A DNA stretch of 64,000 nt from Candidatus Parepulonipiscium sp. PG-Nuni2H_MBin01 (GTDB lineage Bacteria > Bacillota > Clostridia > Lachnospirales > Cellulosilyticaceae). Positions 118 through 4,979 of this stretch are shown piece after piece. The notes beneath the pieces are model-generated. The model did no database searches and was not told where the DNA came from. It saw only the letters and a list, made by a program, of their open reading frames with translations. The stretch spans positions 1 to 64,000 of the forward strand of contig MDJM01000003.1 in NCBI GenBank assembly GCA_001994995.1. The letters are read 5' to 3'. Each line of letters starts with the position of its first letter. The stretch's first letter is position 1. Made by a program: the position numbers and the translations under genes.

Positions 118-138
118 ATTATAGTTAGGGTGATTATG

Positions 139-375
139 ATGATATTAGGAGAAGTAGTTGGAAGAGTTGTTGCAACTAAAAAAGATGATAATTTGGTAGG
201 GTATAAATTGTTAATGATACAGACTGTAGGTGAAAATAATGTGATTGTAGCAGGAGATAAGTTAGGTGCTGGAGTGGGTGAATATGTAATTGTAGCTTTA
301 CAATATGCAGATTTAATGGATGCGGTTGTAGTTGGAATTGTAGATGAAAAGCCGATGTTTAAGGAGATGAAATAG
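139..375 (+). CDS. EutN/CcmL-family microcompartment vertex protein
   Basis: A 78-residue protein of the pentameric family that caps the vertices of bacterial microcompartments. It opens MILGEVVGRVVAT, has KLLMIQ (23-28), the family glycine turn GAGVGE (43-48) and the closing strand DAVVVGIVD (61-69), and its length is normal. In-frame GTG 130 and ATG 136 precede the chosen ATG 139, which sits 6 bases after AGGGTG. It is the first gene of an operon and abuts the flavoprotein gene with no gap. No hexameric shell protein (Pfam BMC domain) is in the window. Either the shell genes lie to the left or this is an isolated family member with another job. Recognition is by motif and length. Confidence 0.85.
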   Translation: MILGEVVGRVVATKKDDNLVGYKLLMIQTVGENNVIVAGDKLGAGVGEYVIVALQYADLMDAVVVGIVDEKPMFKEMK

Positions 376-1707
376 GTGAAAGTGATAATTGTTGGTGGAG
401 TAGCTGCTGGTATGTCGGCTGCGGCTAAAATTAAAAGGTTGGATAAAACTGCTGAAGTAATAGTTTATGAACAGGGTGAGCATATATCTTATGGAGCATG
501 TGGATTACCTTATTTTGTAGGTGGATTTAATGATGATTGCACTAAACTAATAGCGCGAAGTAAAAATGAATTTGAGAAGATGGGAATTATAGTTAAATTG
601 CAGCATGAAGTACTTAGCATAAAAGTTGAAGATAAAAAGGTGTTGGTACATAACCATAAGAGCAGTGAAACAATAATAGAAAGTTATGATAAATTAATGG
701 TAGCTACAGGTGCACATGTGGTGAAGCCAGATATTAAAGGAATAAATAGAGATGAAATTTGTTATTTAAAAACGTTAGAAGACGGCGTTAAACTAGAAGA
801 AGTTGCTAAGCAAACTGATATTCAAAATGTAGTTGTTGTTGGTGGAGGTTATATAGGAATAGAAGTAGTAGATGCTTTGCTACATCTGGGCAAACATGTT
901 ACTTGTGTAGAGTTTTCCGCTAATATATTAACATCTTTTGATATAGAAATAAGTGAATTTGCTAAAGAGGCATTAATAGCAGCAGGTGTTAAGTTGCATT
1001 TAACTGAAAGAGTAGAGGAATTTCGGGATGCGCCAAAAGGTTGTATGGTAGTTACAGATAAAGGGAGTTATCAAGCTGATTTGGTGATTATGGCCGTAGG
1101 GATAAAACCAAATACGCAGTTTTTAGAAAATACAGGTATGCTAATGGCTGAAAATGGTGCAATAGTAGTTGATAGGCAAATGCGTACTTCTATACCTAAT
1201 ATATATTCGGCTGGAGATTGTGCGCAGGTGTATCATAGAGGAATGAAGGAAAATGTATATTTACCGTTAGGTACAGTAGCTAATAAATGTGGACGTATTG
1301 CAGGTGAAAATATATTGGGTGCTCATAAAAGTTTTGTAGGTGCATTAGGCTCTGCTGGAATTAAGGTATGTAATTTAGAATTTGGAAGAACTGGCCTTGG
1401 TGAAGCTGATGCTAAAAAGTTAGGATTAAATTATAAAACTGTAATTGTAGAAAGTTATGACCATCCGAAATATTATCCAAATGCAACAGTGATTAAAATA
1501 AAATTAGTGTATGAGACAGGTACTAAAAAGCTTTTAGGAGCACAAGCAGCAGGAGAAAAAGGAGCTGTTTTGCGCGTTGATATGTTTGCAATTGCTATTC
1601 ATAATGGTATGACAACTGATGAACTCGGCATGACGGATTTAATATATGCACCACCTTTTGCAGGAGTTTGGGATGCTGTACACATTGCATGCAATTTAGC
1701 AAAGTAA
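376..1707 (+). CDS. CoA-disulfide reductase / NADH oxidase-family flavoprotein
   Basis: A 443-residue FAD- and NAD(P)H-dependent pyridine nucleotide-disulfide oxidoreductase. The FAD dinucleotide fold is at 4-17 (IVGGVAAGMSAAAK), the single redox Cys42 is in YGACGLPYFVGG, the NAD fold is at 152-164 (VVVVGGGYIG), the second FAD motif is at 277-283 (YSAGDCA), and a C-terminal dimerisation domain follows. One active-site Cys in CGLPY is typical of CoA-disulfide reductases and related NADH oxidases, so the substrate could be CoA disulfide, CoA persulfide or oxygen. The start is GTG directly after the stop of the EutN-like gene. Its place between a microcompartment vertex gene and CoA-transferase genes suggests a role in CoA redox or CoA-thiol recycling, which is inference. 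Confidence 0.85.
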   Translation: MKVIIVGGVAAGMSAAAKIKRLDKTAEVIVYEQGEHISYGACGLPYFVGGFNDDCTKLIARSKNEFEKMGIIVKLQHEVLSIKVEDKKVLVHNHKSSETIIESYDKLMVATGAHVVKPDIKGINRDEICYLKTLEDGVKLEEVAKQTDIQNVVVVGGGYIGIEVVDALLHLGKHVTCVEFSANILTSFDIEISEFAKEALIAAGVKLHLTERVEEFRDAPKGCMVVTDKGSYQADLVIMAVGIKPNTQFLENTGMLMAENGAIVVDRQMRTSIPNIYSAGDCAQVYHRGMKENVYLPLGTVANKCGRIAGENILGAHKSFVGALGSAGIKVCNLEFGRTGLGEADAKKLGLNYKTVIVESYDHPKYYPNATVIKIKLVYETGTKKLLGAQAAGEKGAVLRVDMFAIAIHNGMTTDELGMTDLIYAPPFAGVWDAVHIACNLAK

Positions 1708-1729
1708 GGTAAAAAAGGAGGTTGCAAGT

Positions 1730-1759
1730 ATGTTCTTGCGGGATTTGTATGAAAAATAA
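1730..1759 (+). other. Nine-codon ORF with an ideal ribosome binding site
   Basis: AAGGAGG at 1715-1721 is spaced 8 bases from ATG 1730, which opens a reading frame of only nine codons ending in TAA at 1757-1759. This short frame overlaps the likely start (ATG 1749) of the CoA-transferase alpha gene in another frame. It may be a leader peptide that couples translation to the next gene. Confidence 0.35.
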
Positions 1760-2555
1760 ATTGATGGATATTAGTAGCGCTGTAGAAATGATTAATGATG
1801 GTGACACTATAGGTATAGGTGGAAATGTTTTACATCGTGCTCCGATGGCATTAGTAAGAGAAATTGCAAGAGCTAGGAAAAAAGGATTACATGTTATAAA
1901 AACAGCAGGAGCTATGGATGTAGATTTACTTTGTGCTGCTAATAGTGTTAGTAGTGTATCAGCAGGATTTGTTAGTTATGAAAGTGAAATTGGTTTTTGT
2001 AACTTTTTTAGACAAGCGGTCCAAAATGGAACTGTTAAAGGTCATGAACATGCATGCTACACTATAATTTCAGCACTAAGAGCATCTGCATATGGAATAC
2101 CATTTATGCCTGTTAAGGGATTGCAAGTAAGTGACTTAGTAGATGTTAATGATTACTTTACAAAAATTAAAGACCCTTTTTCAGATGAACAGATTAGCGT
2201 AGTTAAAGCAATTAGACCAGATGTAACTATAATTCATGTGCAAGAAGCGGATGTATATGGCAATGTAAAGTTTTATGGACCAATTTATGATGACTATACA
2301 TTGGTTGCCGCTTCTAAAAAAGTTGTTATTTCAGCGGAAAAAATAGTAACATTTAATATAGAAAGTAAAGTTGACATCCCACATTTGATGGTAGATGCTG
2401 TGGTAGAAGTACAAAATGGTGCAGCTCCATGCTCATGTGCAACGTTATATGATATTGATATAAGTAGTATTAAAGCATTTAGGAGTGCTAACTTAGAAGA
2501 TTACTTAAATAAGTATGAAAAATTAGATAGAAGGACGGTGGATAATGAGCAATAG
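1749..2555 (+). CDS. CoA-transferase-fold protein, alpha subunit (GctA/IpdA-like)
   Basis: A 268-residue alpha subunit of the heterodimeric CoA-transferase superfamily (COG1788 type). It starts with the usual strand DGDTIGIGGN (17-26), followed by RAPMALVREIARA and later RPDVTIIHVQEADVYGN and HLMVDAVVEVQNGA. The frame stays open upstream to TTG 1722, but that codon touches the AAGGAGG at 1715-1721. ATG 1749 or ATG 1764 is more likely, possibly coupled to the nine-codon ORF at 1730. The gene overlaps its beta partner by 11 bases. The pair could be a true CoA transferase or, as in IpdAB, a hydrolase or lyase acting on acyl-CoA. The substrate cannot be read from the sequence. Confidence 0.8.
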   Translation: MKNKLMDISSAVEMINDGDTIGIGGNVLHRAPMALVREIARARKKGLHVIKTAGAMDVDLLCAANSVSSVSAGFVSYESEIGFCNFFRQAVQNGTVKGHEHACYTIISALRASAYGIPFMPVKGLQVSDLVDVNDYFTKIKDPFSDEQISVVKAIRPDVTIIHVQEADVYGNVKFYGPIYDDYTLVAASKKVVISAEKIVTFNIESKVDIPHLMVDAVVEVQNGAAPCSCATLYDIDISSIKAFRSANLEDYLNKYEKLDRRTVDNEQ

Positions 2556-3264
2556 GATAAGTGACATTATGGTGTGTGCAATGGCTAGATTAATTAAAAA
2601 TGAAAATACAGTATTTCATGGAGTTTCTTCACATATGCCAATGATTGCTACAATGTTAGCAAAAGCAACCCATGCGCCGGATGCAGTACATCTTAATATA
2701 CCTGGAGGAGTAGACCCACAAACACCTAATTTGCGTCATTACACAAGCGCAGGTAGCGAACTAACTGACAGCAGTATAGCTTCTATGCCTCTATCACAAA
2801 TATTTGATTTATCTATGCGTGGAGGGCTAGATGTAGCATTTTTAAGTGGTGTACAGTTTGATAATAGAGGTAATGTAAACGCTTCAGTCATAGGAGATTA
2901 TAATAAACCAAAAGTAAAAATGCCAGGTGGAGCTGGTAGTGCTGTATTAATTCCCACTGTAAAAACAGCTATAATTTGGAGAACAAAACATGATATACGG
3001 ACTTTTGTAAAAAAGGTAGATTTTGTTACTACTAAAGGAAATGTAAAATATATAATAACTCCACTGTGCATATTTAAAATGTATGAAGGCGAACTAATAC
3101 TAGATTTTATTCACCCTACATCTAATATTGATGAAATAGCTGCTAATACTGAATTTGATATACGCTATATTGATATAAAATATACTCCATTGCCTACATT
3201 AGCAGAAATGAATATACTAAATCAAATTGACCCTAATGATTACCGAAATATTGAATTCAAATAA
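2545..3264 (+). CDS. CoA-transferase-fold protein, beta subunit, catalytic Glu apparently absent
   Basis: A 239-residue beta subunit (COG2057 type), recognisable by LDVAFLSGVQFDNRGNVN, VIGDYNKPKVKMPGGAGS and KKVDFVTTKG, all close to glutaconate CoA-transferase GctB as I recall it. At the position where GctB carries its acyl-accepting Glu (VESG), this protein reads NIPGG (51-55), which places Ile52 where Glu is expected. The related IpdAB enzyme of actinobacteria also lacks that Glu and hydrolyses a ring in a CoA thioester. A non-transferase reaction is therefore plausible here. It is translationally coupled to the alpha gene and closed by a strong terminator. Confidence 0.8.
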   Translation: MSNRISDIMVCAMARLIKNENTVFHGVSSHMPMIATMLAKATHAPDAVHLNIPGGVDPQTPNLRHYTSAGSELTDSSIASMPLSQIFDLSMRGGLDVAFLSGVQFDNRGNVNASVIGDYNKPKVKMPGGAGSAVLIPTVKTAIIWRTKHDIRTFVKKVDFVTTKGNVKYIITPLCIFKMYEGELILDFIHPTSNIDEIAANTEFDIRYIDIKYTPLPTLAEMNILNQIDPNDYRNIEFK

Positions 3265-3292
3265 CCTTCTAAATTTAGAAGGTTATTTTTTA
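3263..3292 (+). terminator. Terminator of the EutN/CoA operon
   Basis: A perfect 11-pair inverted repeat AACCTTCTAAA/TTTAGAAGGTT (3263-3284) overlaps the stop codon of the beta-subunit gene and is followed by a T-run. Confidence 0.9.
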
Positions 3293-3350
3293 TTATTTAT
3301 ATTAAATTAGGACATACTAAACCTATATTAATTTGATGGAAGGTGAGCAT

Positions 3351-4979
3351 GTGAGAATTATAGTAATAGGAGCAGTTGCAGCAGGTACATCTGCGGCAGC
3401 TAAAGCGAGGCGTAACAATGATGCCGCTGAAATTGTTATATATGAAAAAGATTTATTCATTTCTTATGCAATATGTGGTATGCCATATTTTATCGGAGGA
3501 GAAGTTGAGGATATAGACGAACTTACACCAAGGGATGTGGAGTTTTTTAAGAAAAAACATAATATTGATGTATTTATTGGTCATGAAGTTATAGATGTAG
3601 ATGTTGACCTTAAGACTGTAACTGTAAAAAATCTAACTACCCAAACTATTATAGTAGATAAATATGATAAGCTTGTATTTTCAACTGGAGCAACTGTGGC
3701 TAAACCAAATATAGAAGGATTAGATAAGCCCAATGTATTTTTCCTTAGAACTATTGCGAATGCTCAAGATATAAAACATTATATTAAGGTAAATAATCCA
3801 AAAAATGCAATTGTAGTAGGGTCTGGATTTGTTGGGTTTGAGATTATGGAGAACCTTATGCATTTAGGGGTAGATGTGACATTGCTGGATGCTGCAGATA
3901 AGCTTACTAAAAACTTGGATGCAGATATGGCAAAATATTTGGAGAAGATTTTACTTGGTAAAAATGTTAAAGTTCTTACTAGTCAACATATTACGCAAAT
4001 TACTGACGAAGGAATTAAATTAGCCAATAATACTACTTTAGCAACTGACATGATTATTATGGCAACAGGAGTTCGTCCTAATGTGGATTTGGCTAAAAGT
4101 GTTGGTATAGTTATAGGAGAAATGGGCGGCATTAAAGTTGATAGGCATATGAAGACTAATATTGACGATGTATATGCATGTGGGGATTGTATTGAGACGT
4201 TTTCAAGAGTTACTGGGGGTGTTGTATATCAGGCTATGGCTACTGTGGCTAATAAAACTGGCCGTATAGCAGGAGATAATTTAACTGGTGGAACATCATT
4301 TTATGCTGGTGGTCTTGGTACTGGCATTTTTAAGTTATTTAACTACACTATTGCAAGTACTGGTATTAATGAGGCAGAAGCGATTTCACTGGGGTATGAT
4401 ATTCAAGTGTGCCATAATATAAAACCAAATAAACCTTTATATATGGATGGTAAGGAGATGGTTATTAAGGCTATTGCGGATAAAAAATTTGGTAGACTGC
4501 TAGGTGTGCAAATTATTGGACAAGATGGTGTAGATAAACGAATAGATGTATTTGCTACGCTAATTACGTATGAAGCTAAAGTTCAGGAAATCTTTGATAT
4601 TGATTTAGCTTATGCGCCTCCTTTTTCAACTACAAAAGACCCTGTAATTTATACTGGAATGATTTTAGACAATGCCTTGAATAATGAATGCCCTTTAATA
4701 CGTGCTGATGATATTCATAAACTCGGTGCAGAAGTTCAGATTGTGGATGTAAGAAGTAATAGCGATTACATTAATAAGGGACATGTGGAAGGTGCGATTA
4801 ATATTCCTCATGCCAAGCTGAGGGATAATTTAGATAAACTTAATAAAGACAAGCCTGTTGTTGTGTATTGTAATAAAGGGGTAACAGGCAATGCAGCGCA
4901 AAATATATTAATCAATAACGGATTTAAATATGTATACAATTTATCAGGGGGACAAAAATTTTATAAAGGGACTAGATAG
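3351..4979 (+). CDS. CoA-disulfide reductase-like flavoprotein fused to rhodanese
   Basis: A 542-residue fusion. Residues 1 to about 445 are a second pyridine nucleotide-disulfide oxidoreductase with FAD motif VIGAVAAGTSAAAK, redox Cys42 in YAICGMPYFIGG, NAD motif IVVGSGFVGFE and FAD motif YACGDC. Residues from about 450 form a rhodanese domain with VDVRSNSDY and active Cys507 in VVYCNKGV. CoADR-rhodanese fusions elsewhere reduce polysulfide or CoA persulfide with NADH. GTG 3351 is preferred to upstream TTG 3333 and ATG 3336, because GGAAGG (3338-3343) is spaced 7 bases from it. It is a separate transcript from the neighbouring CoA operon but has the same chemistry, so the two may cooperate. 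Confidence 0.88.
   Translation: MRIIVIGAVAAGTSAAAKARRNNDAAEIVIYEKDLFISYAICGMPYFIGGEVEDIDELTPRDVEFFKKKHNIDVFIGHEVIDVDVDLKTVTVKNLTTQTIIVDKYDKLVFSTGATVAKPNIEGLDKPNVFFLRTIANAQDIKHYIKVNNPKNAIVVGSGFVGFEIMENLMHLGVDVTLLDAADKLTKNLDADMAKYLEKILLGKNVKVLTSQHITQITDEGIKLANNTTLATDMIIMATGVRPNVDLAKSVGIVIGEMGGIKVDRHMKTNIDDVYACGDCIETFSRVTGGVVYQAMATVANKTGRIAGDNLTGGTSFYAGGLGTGIFKLFNYTIASTGINEAEAISLGYDIQVCHNIKPNKPLYMDGKEMVIKAIADKKFGRLLGVQIIGQDGVDKRIDVFATLITYEAKVQEIFDIDLAYAPPFSTTKDPVIYTGMILDNALNNECPLIRADDIHKLGAEVQIVDVRSNSDYINKGHVEGAINIPHAKLRDNLDKLNKDKPVVVYCNKGVTGNAAQNILINNGFKYVYNLSGGQKFYKGTR

Follow-up and report, generated by a model that had tools for sequence, protein, structure and literature searches.

A probable microcompartment operon built on the dihydroxyacetone phosphate shunt, cut by a contig end in Candidatus Parepulonipiscium sp. 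PG-Nuni2H_MBin01

Introduction

The dihydroxyacetone phosphate (DHAP) shunt, which converts 5-deoxypentoses to DHAP and an aldehyde, is encoded by clusters (DrdK-DrdI-DrdA or MtnK-MtnA-Ald2; PMC6079011, PMC10986504) that combine a kinase of the methylthioribose (MTR) kinase type, an MtnA-type isomerase, a class II aldolase and often a sugar transporter. The kinase, isomerase and aldolase steps are established in Bacillus thuringiensis on 5-deoxyribose and methylthioribose (PMC6079011), and the shunt also in Escherichia coli, where redox and ATP constraints prevent fermentation of 5-deoxyribose by the free pathway (PMC10986504). The text portions of these two papers that were searched describe no compartment. 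Here we analyse a 64,000-nt stretch of Candidatus Parepulonipiscium sp. PG-Nuni2H_MBin01 (the window; positions 1 to 64,000 of contig MDJM01000003.1, assembly GCA_001994995.1; contig C3 below), whose first genes encode a EutN/CcmL-type vertex protein, a coenzyme A (CoA)-disulfide-reductase-like flavoprotein (CoADR1) and the two subunits of a CoA-transferase-fold enzyme (CtfA and CtfB). We propose, with a probability of roughly 0.78, that these genes are the distal half of a catabolic metabolosome operon built on the DHAP shunt.

Several described bacterial microcompartments (BMCs) come close to this locus. As presented in the main text of a BMC survey (PMC8217296), the PVM, GRM5 and ACI metabolosomes share with it a PF00596 aldolase, an aldehyde dehydrogenase (AldDH), BMC-H and BMC-P, and PVM and GRM5 also follow the logic of forming DHAP plus an aldehyde. 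Unlike in PVM and GRM5, MtnK and MtnA stand upstream here in place of fucose or rhamnose enzymes, and CoADR and CtfAB are added; ACI instead contains a hydroxyacid dehydrogenase together with a BMC-P triplet. The SPU BMCs of the same text likewise lead from a pentose phosphate to an aldehyde for AldDH, but have in common a PF01791 aldolase of the DeoC type along with RpiB (PF02502), both absent from this locus. Judged by the type descriptions consulted, the gene combination matches no named BMC type, in agreement with a first-pass annotation made from the sequence alone. The main texts of two surveys (PMC4207490, PMC8217296) do not mention MTR genes, and an MTR kinase beside pduU/pduV has been called 'unrelated to BMC function' (PMC7593272). 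Searches of the open-licence literature, supplements apart, gave no title or abstract that describes a microcompartment of this kind for methylthioribose, 5-deoxyribose, methionine salvage or the DHAP shunt; the supplements of PMC8217296 may hold an unnamed MIC or MUF entry for these loci.

Results and Discussion

The operon and its continuation on a second contig

The left end of the window carries the following features:

1-95: end of an IS605-like repeat, multicopy in the genome; the operon is interrupted here
93-112, + strand: terminator-like hairpin between repeat and EutN (7-pair stem, T-rich tail; pattern match only)
130-375, + strand: EutN/CcmL-type vertex protein, BMC-P (PF03319, 57 bits, E 2.5e-15)
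376-1707, + strand: CoADR1, CoA-disulfide-reductase-like flavoprotein (NF007123, 574 bits, cut-off 458)
1722-2555, + strand: CtfA, alpha subunit of the CoA-transferase-fold enzyme (PF01144 CoA_trans; profile alignment; model and fold search)
2545-3264, + strand: CtfB, beta subunit of the CoA-transferase-fold enzyme (PF01144 CoA_trans)
3259-3288, + strand: terminator-like hairpin at the operon end (13 pairs, T-rich tail)
3333-4979: CoADR-rhodanese fusion, outside the operon (PF07992, Pyr_redox_2, and PF00581, rhodanese)

All five open reading frames (ORFs) listed by the first-pass annotation between 130 and 4979 were confirmed by an ORF check and profile searches, as were the direct abutment of EutN and CoADR1 and the two-subunit CoA-transferase-fold pair, whose ORFs overlap. 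Judged from the sequence, CtfA likely starts at ATG 1749 rather than TTG 1722, and the CoADR-rhodanese gene at GTG 3351, slightly downstream of its listed start. The annotation had read the whole interval as one operon, which holds for EutN-CoADR1-CtfA-CtfB and fails for the CoADR-rhodanese gene 68 bp downstream of CtfB. Because a 13-pair hairpin lies directly 3' of CtfB, and because none of the relatives' operons compared has a CoADR-rhodanese gene at that place, we rejected this gene as an operon member, regard it as a separate neighbouring unit and place the end of the operon near 3264.

The left edge, in turn, is not the start of the operon. Window base 1 is base 1 of contig C3, and bases 1-95 belong to a repeat with 11 matches genome-wide (own copy included); the final 84 bases of an 11.2-kb contig, C46, are the opposite end of the same repeat. 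Both repeat ends recur at a further locus (L034), separated by 147 bp and with order and orientation unchanged; at another (L040) the copy is longer and includes a TnpB-like fragment, recognised by eye rather than profiled. The multicopy ends with hairpins and the end pairing in L034 would be compatible with an IS200/IS605-like element. As C46 closes with one end of this repeat and C3 opens with the other, and order and orientation agree, the most probable arrangement is a single locus made up of C46 (reversed), one IS605-like element and C3, with the window genes as the distal (right) half of an operon that the contig end interrupts.

The shell genes and the AldDH to be sought on the left were both found on C46. 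BMC domains are confined in this genome to the end of that contig (three PF00936 domains), and the single EutN-family (PF03319) gene of the genome is the one on C3. Read toward the window, C46 encodes SigK, a substrate-binding protein, a sugar ABC ATPase and a permease (the transporter is Rbs-type), MtnK, MtnA, a class II aldolase, an acylating AldDH and a 298-amino-acid ORF with three BMC domains (BMC-T/BMC-H). MtnK scores 427 bits against TIGR01767 (MTR kinase; cut-off 275) and MtnA 407 bits against TIGR00512 (MTR-1-P isomerase; cut-off 279); the 5-deoxyribulose-1-P aldolase structure 6btd is among the best PDB matches of the aldolase, and AldDH falls into subfamily PRK15398 (632 bits, cut-off 403), i.e. 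acylating and of BMC type. The gene trio of the DHAP shunt is therefore encoded together on C46. Its Pfam families are PF01636, PF01008 and PF00596, not PF01791/PF02502, and an assignment to the SPU type was rejected on these grounds.

A conserved operon in related genomes

In two relatives the operon runs unbroken across the gap point, in the order BMC-H, PduL, EutN, CoADR, CtfA, CtfB and iron alcohol dehydrogenase (Fe-ADH). Scanning the species genomes with the aldolase profile gave 53 loci, and among those with more than about 57% identity most share the order SBP-RbsA-RbsC-MtnK-MtnA-(DeoR, reverse)-aldolase-AldDH-BMCa-BMC-H-BMCb-BMC-H, where SBP is the substrate-binding protein, followed by PduL-EutN-(373-amino-acid protein)-CoADR-CtfA-CtfB-(Fe-ADH). 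Carriers include Lacrimispora, Anaerocolumna, Acetanaerobacterium, Proteocatella and Epulopiscium and, without Fe-ADH, Mesobacillus, Alkalicoccus, Saliterribacillus and Paenibacillus. The same gene set is kept in another family of the order, with MtnK, MtnA and aldolase at only about 45-54% identity. It is this unbroken MtnK-MtnA-aldolase-AldDH-shell-PduL-EutN order that points to a metabolosome around the DHAP shunt. Compared with the published shunt clusters, the trio is joined here to a BMC shell, acylating AldDH, PduL, CoADR and CtfAB, and the aldolase bears a tail that resembles an encapsulation peptide. Among the carriers are cultivated type strains (Lacrimispora, Anaerocolumna, Proteocatella, Saliterribacillus), which makes the proposal directly testable.

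The shell genes and this gene order, found in many named genomes, bear out the earlier suggestion of a microcompartment locus. Its alternative, in which an isolated EutN-like protein accompanies a stand-alone module for chemistry on CoA persulfide or CoA disulfide, could draw on the nearby CoADR-rhodanese gene, yet a terminator-like hairpin lies in between, related operons lack the fusion, and EutN belongs to a shell operon whose order is conserved. The signature of the locus is instead a kinase-isomerase-aldolase route for 5-deoxypentoses, and we consider the stand-alone module very improbable. An isolated EutN is ruled out by the BMC genes on C46 and the unbroken operons in relatives.

Most related loci place a protein of about 373 amino acids between EutN and CoADR (e.g. 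L027:6336-7454 (-), L089:14808-15926, L079:10805-11959), with a sugar-binding-protein fold (SBP_bac_1), an invariant PSFCDGH motif and no visible signal peptide. It also occurs in one shell-free DHAP-shunt cluster and was not seen beside EutN in the window.

Proposed pathway and cargo signals

The substrate is probably methylthioribose and/or 5-deoxyribose, the sugar waste of S-adenosylmethionine use. The genome also encodes a methylthioadenosine/S-adenosylhomocysteine nucleosidase. The 5-deoxypentose would be imported, phosphorylated by MtnK and isomerised by MtnA, all in the cytosol, and the ketose 1-phosphate would enter the shell, where the tailed class II aldolase would yield DHAP and either methylthioacetaldehyde or acetaldehyde. 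Held within the shell, the aldehyde would be converted by acylating AldDH to its CoA ester (methylthioacetyl-CoA in the case of methylthioribose). In relatives PduL would then form the acyl phosphate and the iron alcohol dehydrogenase would reduce part of the aldehyde; DHAP and acyl phosphate or acyl-CoA would leave the shell. The redox/ATP limit on 5-deoxyribose fermentation might be less severe in a compartment that brings along an AldDH, PduL and alcohol dehydrogenase of its own. Such a system would add methylthioribose/5-deoxyribose to the substrates of bacterial microcompartments and would suggest how fermenters profit from S-adenosylmethionine by-products.

A check for encapsulation peptides, proposed with the earlier annotation, found peptide-like extensions on two enzymes. 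In nearly all BMC loci a linker leads into a short amphipathic helix at the C-terminus of the aldolase (here NRITRQILDSI; amphipathicity 0.006 against shuffles), whereas four of five aldolase homologues without neighbouring shell genes stop before the tail. AldDH has a conserved, encapsulation-peptide-like N-terminal extension in BMC loci. By the same measure MtnK, MtnA, CtfA and CtfB carry no such signal, and no recognisable encapsulation peptide was found on CoADR1. The fifth shell-free homologue, in a MtnK-MtnA-aldolase cluster of Ruminiclostridium papyrosolvens (L070), has the tail with no shell genes in view; that cluster is possibly a satellite of another BMC.

The compartment might also serve 5-deoxyribose only, with acetaldehyde converted to acetyl-CoA and CoADR1 and CtfAB as accessories without sulfur chemistry, acting in CoA or NAD redox housekeeping or in a side reaction of acetyl-CoA. 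The same enzyme trio works on 5-deoxyribose in B. thuringiensis (PMC6079011), acetaldehyde is a classic BMC aldehyde, and one locus (L088) has MtnK and MtnA without CoADR1 or CtfAB. However, the kinase takes methylthioribose too (PMC6079011), and CoADR1 and CtfAB track MtnK and MtnA although they would be superfluous for acetaldehyde: where both flanks are visible, 23 of the 24 loci that have MtnK and MtnA also have CoADR1 and CtfAB, against 1 of the 6 that lack MtnK and MtnA (0 of 5 without L085, whose MtnKA may be encoded elsewhere). The upstream flank is short in some of these six, and the Fisher P of about 2e-4 (1/6) or 5e-5 (0/5) overstates the evidence because the loci are related by descent. 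We hold the restriction to 5-deoxyribose to be a serious possibility, at somewhat less than even odds.

CtfAB and CoADR1

CoA-transferases such as GctB carry their catalytic Glu at a position that in CtfB is the Ile of the active-site strand LNIPGG. This strand is invariant in 26 sequences, so that the catalytic Glu of family I CoA-transferases is absent from all of them. CtfB is nearest to AibB and GctB, and its Ile aligns with AibB Cys56; CtfA is nearest to AibA, GctA and IpdA, both by sequence (profile alignment) and by predicted fold. An invariant Cys of CtfA (Cys112 counted from TTG 1722; Cys103 from ATG 1749) aligns with IpdA Glu105, which is altered in entry 6coj, a complex with substrate. 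Given the loss of the transferase Glu in CtfB and the invariant CtfA Cys at the place of IpdA Glu105, CtfAB is probably not a CoA-transferase; an ordinary acetate or 3-oxoacid CoA-transferase was rejected, family scores lying far under the cut-offs and the Glu being lost. The closest solved relatives, by sequence and fold, are the AibAB decarboxylase and the IpdAB CoA-ester hydrolase, which likewise have the transferase fold without the transferase Glu. CtfAB differs from them at the two sites (Ile for AibB Cys56, Cys for IpdA Glu105), and neither a carboxylated nor a ring substrate is expected in this pathway. CtfAB-like pairs outside BMC operons (L140, L142, L143) are also Glu-less at the CtfB site (e.g. 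SITGAVD, SIAGAVN); such pairs mostly stand alone and give no functional clue.

By its profile match and single active-site Cys, CoADR1 would belong to the CoA-disulfide reductase family, with 480 bits against TIGR03385, under the cut-off of 579. Cys42 is invariant among the 26 sequences, and comparison with PDB relatives shows that CoA-disulfide reductase residues, including the active-site Cys and Tyr positions, are kept. The match to CoA-disulfide reductase (e.g. B. anthracis, 3cgb) covers the full length, but CoADR1 is genetically tied to a microcompartment operon.

CoADR1 and CtfAB probably act on the CoA product of the pathway. A more specific and rather speculative idea, which we think unlikely to be correct as it stands, is that they form a new C-S-cleaving system that reductively frees methanethiol from methylthioacetyl-CoA: CtfA Cys112 would attack the thioether sulfur, giving acetyl-CoA and a methyl disulfide, which CoADR1 and NADH would reduce to methanethiol. 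This removal would use up the NADH from the AldDH reaction, with acetyl-CoA remaining. If true, the compartment would ferment methylthioribose to DHAP, acetyl-CoA and methanethiol with a side branch that is redox-neutral, and so salvage sulfur independently of oxygen inside a microcompartment. The Glu-less transferase-fold pair and its flavoprotein partner are a concrete candidate for new CoA-ester chemistry.

State of the locus in this genome

Several points weigh against a DHAP-shunt metabolosome, or against its function in this organism. The join of C46 and C3 is deduced from the contig ends, not read in sequence; AldDH N-terminus amphipathicity is just moderately above shuffles (0.08); and no aldolase residues separate loci with CoADR/Ctf from those without, so that methylthioribose and 5-deoxyribose are not told apart. 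PduL (PF06130), present in the relatives' loci, was not found anywhere in the assembly, EutN is about ten residues shorter than its relatives in the alignment, and BMC-T and BMC-H are fused in frame, with BMC-H as the third domain. Because of these last three findings this copy may be impaired; function may be reduced in this genome, and the argument rests on the relatives.

Taken further, the locus would be a decaying remnant, its halves split by the insertion sequence (IS), pduL lost, vertex and shell genes damaged and no compartment at work. In addition to the three findings, the IS at the break, the terminator-like hairpin upstream of EutN and the lack of an Fe-ADH beside CtfB, unlike in relatives, fit such decay. 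On the other hand, every ORF is open and well conserved (aldolase 79% and CtfB 82% to the Epulopiscium locus), and BMC-H retains its own ribosome-binding site (GGAGG) and ATG within the fused ORF; the fusion may be an assembly error, as a single-base gain or loss would undo it. Pta is present elsewhere in the genome, and the missing genes possibly lie in the unassembled gap: a small contig flanked by repeat copies could be missing from the assembly, and pduL with it. We regard the remnant as possible, though doubtful.

Variation among the shell loci

The two-domain BMC-T of some loci corresponds in most others to two single-domain genes, BMCa and BMCb, with a BMC-H gene between them (examples of the arrangements: L005:85-981 (-); L045:6185-6775; L027:8753-9811). 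Five BMC loci (L060, L061, L065, L066, L069), with aldolases 67-74% identical, lack MtnK/MtnA and also CoADR/CtfAB. Some of them have, by eye, an FGGY-type kinase and a TIM-barrel epimerase-like protein as neighbours and therefore perhaps represent a different ketose pathway that feeds the shared shell chemistry.

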